From positions 1 to 43,289 of the forward strand of contig CAKUZO010000004.1 in the NCBI GenBank assembly GCA_934717895.1: a stretch of 43,289 nucleotides of DNA, in the 5' to 3' direction. Of this stretch, positions 22,590 to 35,455 are shown in pieces. Position numbers and translations under genes: made by a program. The DNA is from an uncultured Candidatus Melainabacteria bacterium (GTDB lineage: Bacteria; Cyanobacteriota; Vampirovibrionia; Gastranaerophilales; Gastranaerophilaceae). Under the pieces are notes generated by a model. That model did no database searches. It worked only from the letters and a program-made list of their open reading frames with translations, and was not told where the DNA came from. How positions within the stretch are numbered: position 1 is the first letter of the stretch; each line of letters begins with the position of its first letter.

Positions 22590-22785
22590 TGATTAAATTA
22601 AATTTAAATGTATATTCTTATCTCGAACTTTAAATAATGTAAAATTAAAAATAGTAAATTTTTGTTTATATTATATAGACAAGCTATTACAATAAGGTTA
22701 TAATAATAGTATATAAATTTAATTAAAAGAAAAGAGAGTTATAAACATGGAGTATAATACAAAATTTTTTAAACAAAGGATAAGT

Positions 22786-23883
22786 ATGCCTAATTTCTTT
22801 CAAACAAAAAAATTTAATACAAATTTTTCTTCAAACCGCTCTGCATTCACACTTGCAGAAGTTCTGATTACCCTTGGCATCATTGGCGTTGTTGCAGCAA
22901 TTACAATGCCTGTTATATTGAGTAATATCCAAGGGCAAGTAAAAGCAAAACGAATTCAAAACATACAACAAAAATTAAGTAAAGTAACAGATAAGATGGC
23001 GGTTCAAAGCGGGCTTATGGGCTATGACAACACAGCAGCTTTTGTTAAAGAGCTTGAAAAACATATGAAAATAGCAAAAGTGTGCGATAACAACAACCTT
23101 GAAGCTTGTTGGCCTACGGAAAAGGTTGTTTTAAATGATTCAGGGGCAACTTGGGAAATCGCCAGAACAAAGAATGCGAAAACTCTAAAAATCCCTGAAA
23201 ATGTCGGTGGAGATTGGTCTGACACTATTGGAATATTAACCGCTGACGGAACTTCAATGATTTTGAGTTATGACAAAGCGTGTACATTTGACGTTGATAA
23301 ATTTGGCTTAAAAGCAACACCTGATGGAACCTTTTCTTATTCAACAAACTGTATTTCAGGAGTATATGACTGGAACGGCGGAAAATTGCCGAACAAACTT
23401 GATGACGACGTAATACGTCTGGGCAAATCAACTGGTCTTGGAACGGAATGTGGTATGAAGCTTGGGGGTAAATGCTTCACTGCTCCTTTCAAACCAACGT
23501 ATTTAACCCAATCAGAATGCGAAAAAGAAAAAGATAGACTTGGTATAAAAAATTGTAGTCCTGATAAAGATTATTGGGCCGGTGCAGTTAGAGATTGCAA
23601 TGGCGTTAAAAACATGCCAACAGCGGAAGATTTAGCTAAATTGGCAACATTGCTATACAAAGGGAACCCGACAATTGGAGCCGAAGCCAATAAGAGTTCT
23701 TTAACACTGGATACCGAAGCAGCATCAACTCTTGGACTAACAAATAAAGAGATATATATATGGGCTGCAAACGAACACGATAGCGAATACTCATACTATC
23801 GAGGTTTTCTACAAAAACGAACTGAATGGAAGCATTATAACCGCAAGGGGACTAGCCGACAGGCAGTTTGTCTAGGATCTTAA
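22786..23883 (+). CDS. Type IV-type prepilin
   Basis: A 365-residue prepilin with a 20-residue leader ending SNRSA, then FTLAEVLITLGIIG and the rest of the hydrophobic helix. The residue before F is alanine rather than the usual glycine, a tolerated variant. The large globular domain has many cysteines (KVCDNNNLEACW, TECGMKLGGKCF, SECEKEK, RDCNGV) and ends RQAVCLGS. The start at 22786 has AAAGGA five bases upstream. ATG 22747 is an in-frame alternative with AGAGAG upstream, giving a 33-residue leader. Unlike the prepilin at 16383, this one has a single leader and no insert, so it shows the ancestral form. Confidence 0.9.
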   Translation: MPNFFQTKKFNTNFSSNRSAFTLAEVLITLGIIGVVAAITMPVILSNIQGQVKAKRIQNIQQKLSKVTDKMAVQSGLMGYDNTAAFVKELEKHMKIAKVCDNNNLEACWPTEKVVLNDSGATWEIARTKNAKTLKIPENVGGDWSDTIGILTADGTSMILSYDKACTFDVDKFGLKATPDGTFSYSTNCISGVYDWNGGKLPNKLDDDVIRLGKSTGLGTECGMKLGGKCFTAPFKPTYLTQSECEKEKDRLGIKNCSPDKDYWAGAVRDCNGVKNMPTAEDLAKLATLLYKGNPTIGAEANKSSLTLDTEAASTLGLTNKEIYIWAANEHDSEYSYYRGFLQKRTEWKHYNRKGTSRQAVCLGS

Positions 23884-29726: not shown

Positions 29727-29796
29727 TGTACTGCTAGTCGAATTTAATATAAAAAAATAATAATAATTAGGGAAATATTTGAAAGGAAAAACAAGC

Positions 29797-32700
29797 ATGA
29801 TTAAGATAAAAGCCGAAAAAAGAAAGGCAGTAGCATCTGCACTAACATTTTGTTTCTTTTTACAGCAGTCTTTTTGTTTGCAGGTTTTAGCAACCCAGAT
29901 ATCAGGAGCAACAGGCAATAATGGAATTTATAATATTACGCCGACTGCAATGAACGGAGATATTGGGTTTAGAAAATATAAAGATTTTAATTTAAGCGAA
30001 GGCGATGTCGCAAACTTGATTTATCACTTGCAAGGCAGGGATTTATCGACATTTGTAAACATGGTTGATAACCAAATTAATATTCAAGGTATTGTAAATA
30101 CCGTAAATAAAGCAGGAGATTTTAACGGTGGACACGCTGTGTTTGTTTCTCCAAACGGCATGGTTGTCGGTCAAAGCGGTGTCTTGAATGTAGGTTCTTT
30201 ATCTGTTATGACACCTGATGTTTCAGCTTACGAAAAATATAAAAGCGATGTCGCTAACCCAACTTTGATAAAAGATTACAAATCCAGATTGAGTGCACCG
30301 GGAACAGGCAGCGTGACAATCGACGGCAAAGTTTTAGCTCGTAATTTTGTTGATATCAACGCAGCTGACGTGAATGTTTCTAACACAGGGCTTGTAATGG
30401 CAGGTGTTAAAGACGCGACAAAAATAACTTCAAACGCACAAGCAGAAGCTTTGTTTAACAAGCTCGTAAACACTGATAACTTAGCTTCTAATTCATACAA
30501 AAACAACAGCGGAAGTATTTTGGTAACATCTTACGGCGCAAATGGCGGAACAAAAGTTGCCGGGAATATGAAAAACTTCGGCACCGGAAGTGTTCAAATT
30601 ACAAATACAGGCTCAAAAGGTATTCAAATATCCGGCAAAACAGCAAATGCCAACGGTGACACAATTTTAATAAACCAAAAAGGTGCTGTTAATGTTTCCG
30701 GCTCTGTTAAAAACCAAGGCGGTCAACTTCTTGTAGATAATACAGGGAATGGAGTTTTGGTTGCATCAACAGGTTTGTTGAGCAACAAGGGCGGACTTTT
30801 AACCGTAAACAATACCGGTGCTAACGGCGTGACAATTGAAAACGGCGGAAAACTTACAAACTCAACTCATTCCGCAAACATTACAAACTCAGGTGTTAAA
30901 GGCGTAAACGTTCGAGGTCATGTTGATGCAAACGGAATTAACATAAATAACAAAAATTCAAATGTTGTTCTTGGTTACAACACAGGAAGCAATTATTTGA
31001 ACTCAAAAGGCAACGTAAATATTGATATCCAAAACGGAAACTTATTAAACTATGGAACCAAAGAAACTTTAATTAATACATCTAAAAACTTAAATATTGA
31101 TGTAAAAAACGGTTCAGTAGGTAAAAACATAGGACCTTGTGACGGTGGAGTTTGTACCGGAATTGGTGTTGATCAAAGAGATTTAACGAAATCTGTAAAT
31201 GTTGCAGTTGATGGCAGAGTCAAAGCAATTAGTACAAAAGGTTCAAACTCATCACTTGTGAATATGGCAAGTTTGAACAAAAACATGAATGTTGATCAAA
31301 TCAAATCTGATGGCAGAGTGATTTTGCTTGCAGACGGTACTGTAAAAGGTGCAAAACCTTATGATATTTTGAACGCTTCAAGAAATTCTAGAAAACCGAA
31401 CGTCGAAGGTACAGGAATTTCAATAATTTCAAGCGGAAATATCGGTGCTGAAAATAAAGCTTTAACTTTCAGACAAAACGGTGTTGAAAACATTTTCTAT
31501 GGCGACGACGCAACAAAACCGCACGTAGTTACAGATATTAACAAGCCAAAAGAAGGCGTTGATATGTTGGCAATCGGCAATATCAACGTTAAAGGTTTGG
31601 ATAAAGCCGACGGAACAAAACTTGACACTAACGCTTGTGCGATTATTTCAAAAACAGGTAATGTAAACGCTGAATTTTCCGGTGATGTATATATCAGAGA
31701 AACAACTGCCAAGAAAGTAAATATTACAACTCGTGGCAAAAACATGTACATCGAACACTTAGGCGAAGTTCCAACTTACCCGCAAGATTACTATGGACCA
31801 AACGGCGTTAAACTTGAAAAGGCAAAGCTTACAGCTCTTGATTTGGGAAGCTACAAAGATCCAAACGAAGCACCTGAATACAGACACGCAGCAGATTCTA
31901 CAATTGTAGTTAAAAACGGAACTTTCGCAGGCAAAGGCGAAGGCAGACCGGCTCACGAACAAGATTTGACACTTGTTGCAGATAACGCATACGCTGGCGG
32001 TTACTACTTCAATATGGGTAAACACAGACCTGACGGCAAATCTGTATTGACAGAAGATGCAACAACTAATCCGCTTACAAATGCAATTAACCCTGAAACT
32101 CCTGTTTCTATCAGAGCGAAAGCTGTTAGACCTGATGATGTAAAAGCTATCGGTCAAGATCCAAAAGACAGAAATTACTATTATGGTGGCAGCGGACAAG
32201 GAGATGATCCGGATTATGATGGCGTACTTGATCCTAGCAAAAAAGGAACTGAGGAAGATGATGACAACTTGGTAGTTCCTAAAAAAGAAAAAGAATATCC
32301 ACTAGATACAGATACCGATACAGATATTGATACTGACACGGATACGGATACCGATATCGATACTGATATGGACACAGATACAGACACGGACGTTGATACT
32401 GACACAGATACAGATACCGATATTGACACAGATACTGACACAGATGTAGACACGGACAACGATACTGACTCTGATATAGATACTGACGCTGATTCGGATA
32501 CCGATATTGATACAGATACCGATACAGATGTTGATACGGATACCGACACCGACACTGACACAGATACAGATGTAGATTCAGACAGTGATTCCGACTCTGA
32601 TAACGACAACGATAGTGATATTGATACAGATACTGACGTTGACACTGATAATGATACTGATACAGATGTAGATTCCGATTCCGACAGCGATTCTGACAGT

Positions 32701-33231
32701 GACTCTGACAGTGATTCAGATAGTGACTCAGATAGCGACTCGGATAGTGACTCAGACAGCGATATCGACTCTGATACAGACATTGACTCAGACAGCGACG
32801 ACGATATTGACAAACCACAAGCAAGCTATAAAGACACCTACAAACAACGTGTAGTTGATTATAATGTAAACTCTATCGACAAACGTCAATATATGAGATT
32901 CCCGGCACAAGACAACAGAAACCCTGTTTCTCTTGCAGAAAACACCCAAATCGACTCATTACTCGATATTTCAAGAGGTGGTATTGCGGTAAAACACCAC
33001 AATGATCTTAAAGTAGGCGATGTTGTTCCGGTAAATATCTCTTACGGCAATTTGAACATTAATGCAGACGTAAAAGTTGTTTCAGCAAGCGATGTTCGTG
33101 CTGGGGCAGAGTTTATCAACCTAGACCAAATAACAGCAAACAAACTTCTATACATGAATATGTTGTTGGAAGAACAGACTGCAATGGGACAAAGAGGCAA
33201 TAACATCAACAACGTTTCATACGCAAACTAA
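29797..33231 (+). CDS. Filamentous-haemagglutinin-like adhesin with D-T/D-S repeat stalk and C-terminal PilZ domain
   Basis: A 1144-residue protein. A long basic signal peptide (residues 1-35) precedes a haemagglutination-activity/TPS-type domain ([24 protein letters not shown] onward, including [12 protein letters not shown]), recalling the LktA family of filamentous adhesins. A beta-helix region of imperfect repeats (LVNNTG-, [18 protein letters not shown]) runs to about 600. Residues 837-1005 are almost pure Asp-Thr then Asp-Ser dipeptides. The end is a PilZ-like domain: R1030-Q-Y-M-R1034 (RxxxR) and D1057-I-S-R-G-G1062 (DxSxxG), the c-di-GMP-binding signature. No TpsB partner and no sortase motif is seen. 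ATG 29797 is chosen for its ribosome site; an upstream TTG lies inside that site. Confidence 0.88.
32305..32811. repeat. Low-complexity GAY-WSN repeat tract (Asp-Thr / Asp-Ser)
   Basis: About 507 bases made of GAT/GAC alternating with ACN, TCN/AGY or an occasional ATT or GTT codon. The first half is mainly Asp-Thr, the second Asp-Ser. Synonymous codons are well mixed, so the tract is kept at protein level rather than copied as a pure DNA repeat. Confidence 0.95.
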
Positions 33232-34714: not shown

Positions 34715-35455
34715 CTACAAACTGAAATTGAAATTCATAATAATAACAAGTTCTTCATTGAAAAAGTTTTCAGGGAACGGCTTAAACGGTGCAGCAGAAC
34801 GAATTGCAGCTCCCGCATTATCATCTAAAAGTTTAATTTTAGACGACTTTAAAATCCTGCATTTTTTCACATTACCATCTCTGTCAAGCGTAATCGCCAT
34901 CTGTACCATCAGGTCTTTTTGTCCTTTTGCAAGAATATCAATATCTTTTCTCGGTGGAACTTTCCAGTTTTTTACAATTTTTTCTCTAACCTCTTTAACA
35001 TAAGGAGCATAGTCCACGTATTTGCCATCAGGACTGAATACAAATGATTCTGAACTATTTACAAAAACCTGAACAGCGTGAAGTTTTCCGGACGGATAAT
35101 CATAAATAATTCGACACTTCATAAGTTCAGGACGTCTAAAAGAAACAAATTTCAACATATTTGAATCGATATTGTAAATAAGTTCTGCATTACCGTTTTT
35201 CACGTAATGATAAGATTTATTTTGAGTTCCATCGTCCGGCACAAGAGTAAAATCATGGTAATATTTCGGATATTTGTCAGTTTTAATTTGTGTTTTAATC
35301 TTACTGAATATAATGGCAAGAGTTTCGTTTACTTGTTCATAACTCTTACTTTGAGCAGGTTGCAAAAAATCCGGCGTAATTTTTGAATAAGTTCCGGCAA
35401 TGGCACTTGCAGCCATTGTTAGTATTGTTATACATAAAATTAATAGCTTTTTCAT
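34715..35455 (-). CDS. Exported protein with TonB C-terminal domain
   Basis: A 246-residue product. A signal peptide (MKKLLILCITILTMAASAIAG) is followed by an unassigned middle domain (about 25-150). A TonB-C-like domain ends it: VREKIVKNWKVPP, then VQMAITLDRDGNVKKCRILKSSK, then AIRSAAPFKPFPE. Unlike true TonB it has no proline-rich linker and its N-terminal hydrophobic segment looks cleavable. It may thus be a free periplasmic TonB-C protein or a TolA-like part rather than an energy transducer. GGAG precedes ATG. No ExbB/ExbD is near. Confidence 0.85.
   Translation of the reverse strand: MKKLLILCITILTMAASAIAGTYSKITPDFLQPAQSKSYEQVNETLAIIFSKIKTQIKTDKYPKYYHDFTLVPDDGTQNKSYHYVKNGNAELIYNIDSNMLKFVSFRRPELMKCRIIYDYPSGKLHAVQVFVNSSESFVFSPDGKYVDYAPYVKEVREKIVKNWKVPPRKDIDILAKGQKDLMVQMAITLDRDGNVKKCRILKSSKIKLLDDNAGAAIRSAAPFKPFPENFFNEELVIIMNFNFSL

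Follow-up and report, generated by a model that had tools for sequence, protein, structure and literature searches.

The window, by which we mean the whole stretch of 43,289 nucleotides analysed here, carries on its plus strand a gene for an adhesin of the two-partner secretion (TPS) type that ends in a PilZ domain (29797..33231; 1144 aa from an ATG start, with an alternative TTG start 18 bases 5′ at 29779). Residues 1-32 (29797..29892) form a probable Sec signal peptide, with a hydropathy peak of 2.22 preceded by a charge of +4 by a hydropathy measure rather than a trained predictor, and with cleavage guessed by eye to follow VLA. As in TpsA proteins, a Sec signal peptide is thus indicated by hydropathy, charge and a cleavage-like site (a moderate test), and the TPS secretion domain is identified by a match to the LktA-family FxxPxG head (NF012204, 148.8 bits; residues 45-196, 29929..30384). 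It is followed by a beta-helix-type passenger with its C-terminal segment, which ends at the stalk (30385..32304), and by an Asp/Thr/Ser-rich stalk of 170 aa (residues 837-1006, 32305..32814). The strand repeats of the passenger could be modelled as far as nucleotide 30786, the remainder being known from sequence repetition alone, and the stalk varies strongly among relatives in both length and letters. The PilZ domain (residues 1029-1117, 32881..33147; Pfam and fold search) contains an RxxxR motif (R1030, R1034; 32884..32898) and a DxSxxG motif (D1057, S1059, G1062; 32965..32982), both read from the sequence and conserved in relatives, and it is closed by a C-terminal helix that relatives also keep (33127..33195, model residues 106-128). 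Pfam assigned a polysaccharide flippase upstream of the adhesin gene, and a GNAT acetyltransferase, an EamA transporter and a TonB-C-domain protein to the opposite-strand genes downstream.

The first-pass annotation of this DNA had described an exported adhesin with a TPS-like head that ends in a PilZ-like domain with both cyclic-di-GMP (c-di-GMP) motifs intact, an unusual pairing. This description was borne out: the head matches NF012204 behind a signal-peptide-like start, the C-terminal piece scores 36.6 bits against the PilZ profile (PF07238) with a curated cut-off of 22.5, a fold search returned the PilZ barrel, and the motif residues R1030/R1034 and D1057-G1062 are those originally numbered. 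A chance motif or frame artefact is ruled out by the Pfam match, the fold and the related proteins in many genomes. A separate gene or a frameshift at the stalk is likewise ruled out, the frame being unbroken in the window and in many relatives. Matches to MSCRAMM Sdr/Clf proteins reflect low-complexity similarity of the stalk and fall well under the cut-offs of those families. Sequence searches of solved structures gave no match at E 0.01 with alignment A1 of the domain, and with alignment A2 nothing beyond three Alg44 entries (E 0.14-0.72). Long antisense frames over the stalk (32214-32813 and 32279-32824, minus strand) are a by-product of its short repeats.

Other stalk-PilZ fusions, for which a search had been proposed, are numerous. 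The C-terminal region returned at least 500 protein matches from the database, and the motif pair is present in all 121 sequences examined (120 among the matches listed, plus that of the window). Five loci in named genomes all belong to Candidatus Gastranaerophilales, an order within the Melainabacteria, as do the nearest relatives of the window adhesin (83% identity), so that the window too probably stems from this order. In a sample of 192 genomes from the order of G001, a Candidatus Gastranaerophilales genome, alignment A1 was matched by 122 (E 0.001), many of them with two to four matches, and some PilZ was present in 188. A class-wide sample gave matches in 121 of 289 genomes at E 1e-5, only three of which (G290, G304, G306) lay outside the handles of the order sample. 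Because all match one alignment, the PilZ adhesins of the order are related. Many A1 matches are short open frames of about 150-540 aa, and each of those fetched (G039, G048, G076, G082, G142) reaches the end of its contig. Among divergent relatives there are single frames longer than 5000 aa, the longest of 6438 aa, whose extreme C-terminus is PilZ; examples are L153 (G170:C4:53925), L163 (G138:C1) and L164 (G160:C10). The LktA-family head exceeds its cut-off in the frames of more than 5000 aa in G155, G160 and G170 and in a frame of 4382 aa in G103. With the divergent domain of G149 as the query, 16 further proteins of 1614-2768 aa were matched, each with a precomputed PilZ assignment, and these entered the conservation count described below.

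The secretion partner expected of a TPS adhesin was sought in 12 relatives, all of which encode both the ShlB/TpsB family (PF03865) and the adhesin head family. A TpsB gene adjoins the PilZ-bearing TpsA gene in G151, G155 and G170, and in G103 it adjoins a TpsA whose PilZ-like domain lacks the motifs. In G149, TpsB is separated from the PilZ adhesin by one TPS adhesin without PilZ (L150, 7364-9826), an arrangement in which a single transporter may serve adhesins with and without the domain. No TpsB was found among the 10 window open reading frames put to Pfam, nor among the frames read around the adhesin or small PilZ genes of G039, G048, G076, G082, G142 and G145, where several stretches reach a contig end. 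In G039, a TpsB is encoded some 62 kb away on the same contig, and in G001 TpsB lies on contigs other than those with the adhesins.

Relatives also encode small proteins in which a signal-peptide-like start is followed, after a stretch of short to medium length, by a PilZ domain, with no adhesin part. The Pfam PilZ cut-off was exceeded by all six that were tested. Four of the genes lie on the same strand directly 3′ of an adhesin gene that ends in PilZ (G039 L086, 67-522; G076 L145, 6170-6826; G048 L146, 970-1614; G142 L147, 4798-5457), the adhesin being cut by the contig end in G076 and G048. Two others (G018 L179, 1269-1778; G012 L180, 1625-2146) are divergent from an adjoining TpsB-like gene; these TpsB-like neighbours are near-identical, and the one from G018 contains POTRA_2 and ShlB by Pfam. 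A 166-aa match in G082 was dropped from this group because it is the truncated end of an adhesin with a stalk. An N-terminal hydrophobic segment, whole or partial, was present in 10 of the 14 small PilZ proteins matched in the database, the remaining four being fragments without it. Export was judged by a simple hydropathy measure and by eye rather than by a trained predictor or an experiment; by this measure the N-terminal peak was 2.19-3.43 in 11 small PilZ proteins and 2.22-2.70 in six other PilZ adhesins, as against 0.32-1.87 in 34 PilZ proteins of the order that are about 200 aa long. Several of the small proteins have cleavage-like sites, and positive charge precedes the hydrophobic segment in all 11 that were measured, so that a PilZ domain on the outside would still be favoured even if the segment were to stay as a membrane anchor. 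The PilZ domain therefore seems meant to leave the cytoplasm, both on adhesins and alone, as far as can be read from these N-termini.

Conservation was assessed over 131 columns in 47 representatives, chosen from 129 distinct domains so that identity stays below 70%. The four columns of lowest entropy are both arginines, the serine and the glycine of the c-di-GMP motifs, with R in 43/43, S in 47/47, G in 47/47 and the second R in 44/45; the only other letter at the second arginine stems from the fragment P0133. At the D/N column, 45 of 47 letters are one of these two; it ranks only twelfth because D and N alternate, which matches the motif definition RxxxR and [DN]xSxxG given in the accessible part of PMC10333796. 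The set includes a cytosolic-type PilZ protein of 197 aa (L040) and the truncated fragments P0133 and P0135, as well as the motif-less L171 and L174, which appear at the arginine columns as gaps rather than mismatches owing to local-match trimming. The motif pair was also kept in all 70 distinct domains of another set and at 21 of 24 divergent loci. Three paralogues have lost the arginine pair and the aspartate (L171 in G109, L174 in G155, L175 in G103); their PilZ-like domains end long frames in the unchanged C-terminal place, and G103 and G155 encode a canonical copy alongside. Serving as an internal control, they suggest that the place of the domain and, by implication, its export are independent of the motif, so that retention of the motif elsewhere suggests ligand binding. 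The conservation of the columns shows the binding site of the domain to be under strong selection. The first-pass annotation had also raised an outside ligand; motif conservation favours a ligand site outside the cytoplasm but does not name the ligand, and, as the motif-less paralogues show, certain copies are maintained even though they lack the site.

With respect to c-di-GMP metabolism, each of five genomes searched had seven GGDEF matches, one of them weak, and HD-GYP-type domains numbered five or seven in each of 12 relatives (G001-G005, G019, G039, G040, G062, G094, G149, G151). EAL domains were absent from all 12 (the EAL control matched in 6 of 14 genomes), as was the LapG-type peptidase C93 (control matched in 1 of 14), and from the lack of EAL we infer that LapD is lacking too. 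Turnover of c-di-GMP in these 12 relatives apparently proceeds without EAL enzymes. No exported diguanylate cyclase was seen in G001, where the three of seven GGDEF genes caught by the pattern have no hydrophobic segment. According to the available sections of PMC8472254, c-di-GMP is normally cytosolic and not periplasmic. Added extracellular c-di-GMP has nevertheless been described to affect biofilm formation and adhesion in Campylobacter jejuni (PMC9608569, accessible part), and extracellular effects on S. mutans and S. aureus are cited in the part of PMC6416229 that was available.

Both halves of the protein have known counterparts. The domain shares the fold, the RxxxR and [DN]xSxxG motifs and the C-terminal helix with YcgR, Alg44, MapZ and BcsA, whereas here it forms part of a TPS adhesin that has an export signal; to our knowledge, PilZ proteins described so far act in the cytoplasm, and receptors of c-di-GMP are regarded as cytoplasmic. 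The TPS adhesins FHA, HMW1, HxuA and EtpA have in common with the window protein a signal-peptide-like start, the TPS domain (NF012204 head) and the beta-helix, and a TpsB with POTRA_2 and ShlB is likewise found in relatives; the window adhesin differs in its PilZ C-terminus, and we know of no published TPS protein with such an end. CdrA/CdrB with LapD/LapG of P. aeruginosa resembles the present case in that a C-terminal hook keeps a TPS adhesin in its pore and retention is tied to c-di-GMP: in the account available from PMC8472254, a disulfide hook stalls CdrA in the pore and LapG releases it under c-di-GMP control via LapD. CdrA thus relies on a disulfide together with a separate receptor and protease, whereas residues 1006-1144 of the window adhesin contain no cysteine, the 12 relatives lack the EAL and C93 domains of that route, and the nucleotide site would here lie in the hook itself. 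The same source, in its accessible part, reports entrapment of HMW1 and ExlA as well; ExlA of the ExlA/ExlB pair is a TpsA kept at the outer membrane, favoured by c-di-GMP, but its C-terminal domain is described there as having no characterised homologue, whereas the window adhesin ends in PilZ. Leptospira LIC_20173, a PrsW protease-PilZ fusion, is similar in that PilZ ends a larger membrane-associated protein, but its PilZ is predicted to be cytoplasmic behind an inner-membrane protease domain, and the portion of PMC12943098 at hand describes no TPS adhesin. In the literature searched, mainly by titles and the beginnings of abstracts and with most subscription journals outside it, we found no exported, secreted or periplasmic PilZ domain, and within the same limits none linked to Gastranaerophilales or to an extracellular filamentous adhesin; the available parts of PMC10333796, PMC12943098 and PMC7841849 contain no exported PilZ either. 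PilZ and TPS adhesins are each known, and it is their combination, order-wide and with export signals, that is absent from the literature searched.

We tentatively favour, at a probability somewhat short of even, the reading that PilZ, exported at the C-terminus of an adhesin secreted by the two-partner route, serves as its stopper, and that the kept cyclic-dinucleotide site would set the balance between retention and release. A PilZ barrel behind a flexible linker lends itself to such a role. The N-terminal TPS head would dock on the TpsB pore and the beta-helix would thread outward, until the flexible linker rests in the pore. The adhesin would then be tethered to the cell by the small folded PilZ barrel, which most likely sits on the periplasmic side of the pore and less likely at the surface. 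Binding of c-di-GMP or a related cyclic dinucleotide outside the cytoplasm might set the stability of the stopper or PilZ-PilZ pairing, and this in turn could determine retention or release of the adhesin. The small PilZ proteins with a signal-peptide-like start may act as soluble partners or competitors. Direct control of a surface adhesin by a second messenger, as envisaged in the first-pass annotation, is at present a conjecture.

A broader reading, possible but rather doubtful in our estimation, is cyclic-dinucleotide sensing outside the cytoplasm, in which the PilZ domains on TPS adhesins and the free secreted ones would read c-di-GMP in the periplasm or outside, whether of the cell's own making, from neighbours or from lysis, and so control retention. 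We regard it as comparably unlikely that the fold has been reused, the exported PilZ being a structural C-cap or a dimerisation or sorting module with no role in c-di-GMP signalling, and the motif residues serving folding, protein contacts or another ligand such as a glycan. Export would indeed separate the domain from the known c-di-GMP pool, L171, L174 and L175 occupy the C-terminal place without the motif, and non-binding PilZ domains that act through protein contacts are described in the available part of PMC10333796. The reuse reading nevertheless has to accommodate that the most conserved columns are precisely the c-di-GMP motif positions, with the alternation of D and N matching the published motif; and if folding or anchoring were all that the motif served, paralogues without it would not be expected to keep their place and architecture.

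The length of the linker bears on a further alternative, that the end stays inside the cell as a plug. Here, c-di-GMP-bound PilZ would fold before export and stall Sec, so that the adhesin spans the envelope with PilZ inside, and at low c-di-GMP the end would pass and the adhesin would be freed. Such a gate would draw on the cytosolic c-di-GMP pool, and a PilZ domain placed in the cytoplasm has a parallel in the Leptospira fusion to a membrane protease (PMC12943098, available part). Bridging both membranes needs, by estimate, roughly 90-100 extended residues. The window linker, from the last passenger motif to R1030, measures 252 aa, and 86 distinct linkers that could be measured (range 72-447) have a median of 112 aa, lengths that could bridge the envelope; however, five of the 86 are shorter than 100 aa and two shorter than 90 aa (72 and 83), and the linker of G149/G151 comprises about 55 aa by eye. 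By this estimate, every linker would suffice for an outer-membrane pore, while the shortest would not span both membranes. Moreover, the small PilZ proteins found near adhesins or a TpsB-like gene, such as that of G039 with about 15-25 residues by eye between its signal-peptide-like start and PilZ, would have nothing outside to hold. Together, the shortest linkers and the small proteins weaken the inside plug proposed in the first-pass annotation, which we now consider improbable, and place a periplasmic or surface stopper above it. That PilZ was captured once by chance and is a relic with no present role would fit the relatedness of the order's PilZ adhesins, but is very improbable given strong column-specific conservation in 47 diverse representatives and the occurrence of PilZ on its own behind a signal-peptide-like start.

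With its export signals and its intact, strongly conserved site, this PilZ family offers a concrete candidate for a receptor of extracellular c-di-GMP. If sensing does take place outside, c-di-GMP would act there as a signal at the envelope or between cells, read by a dedicated receptor; if the ligand differs, a PilZ domain would still have left the cytoplasm and become the end piece of an adhesin in an order of gut bacteria.

Two further genes of the window may be mentioned. The frame at 22747-23883 has a prokaryotic N-terminal methylation (pilin-like) motif (PF07963, 23.5 bits), and 34715-35455 on the minus strand encodes an exported-looking protein of 246 aa in which a TonB C-terminal domain is the sole Pfam domain.
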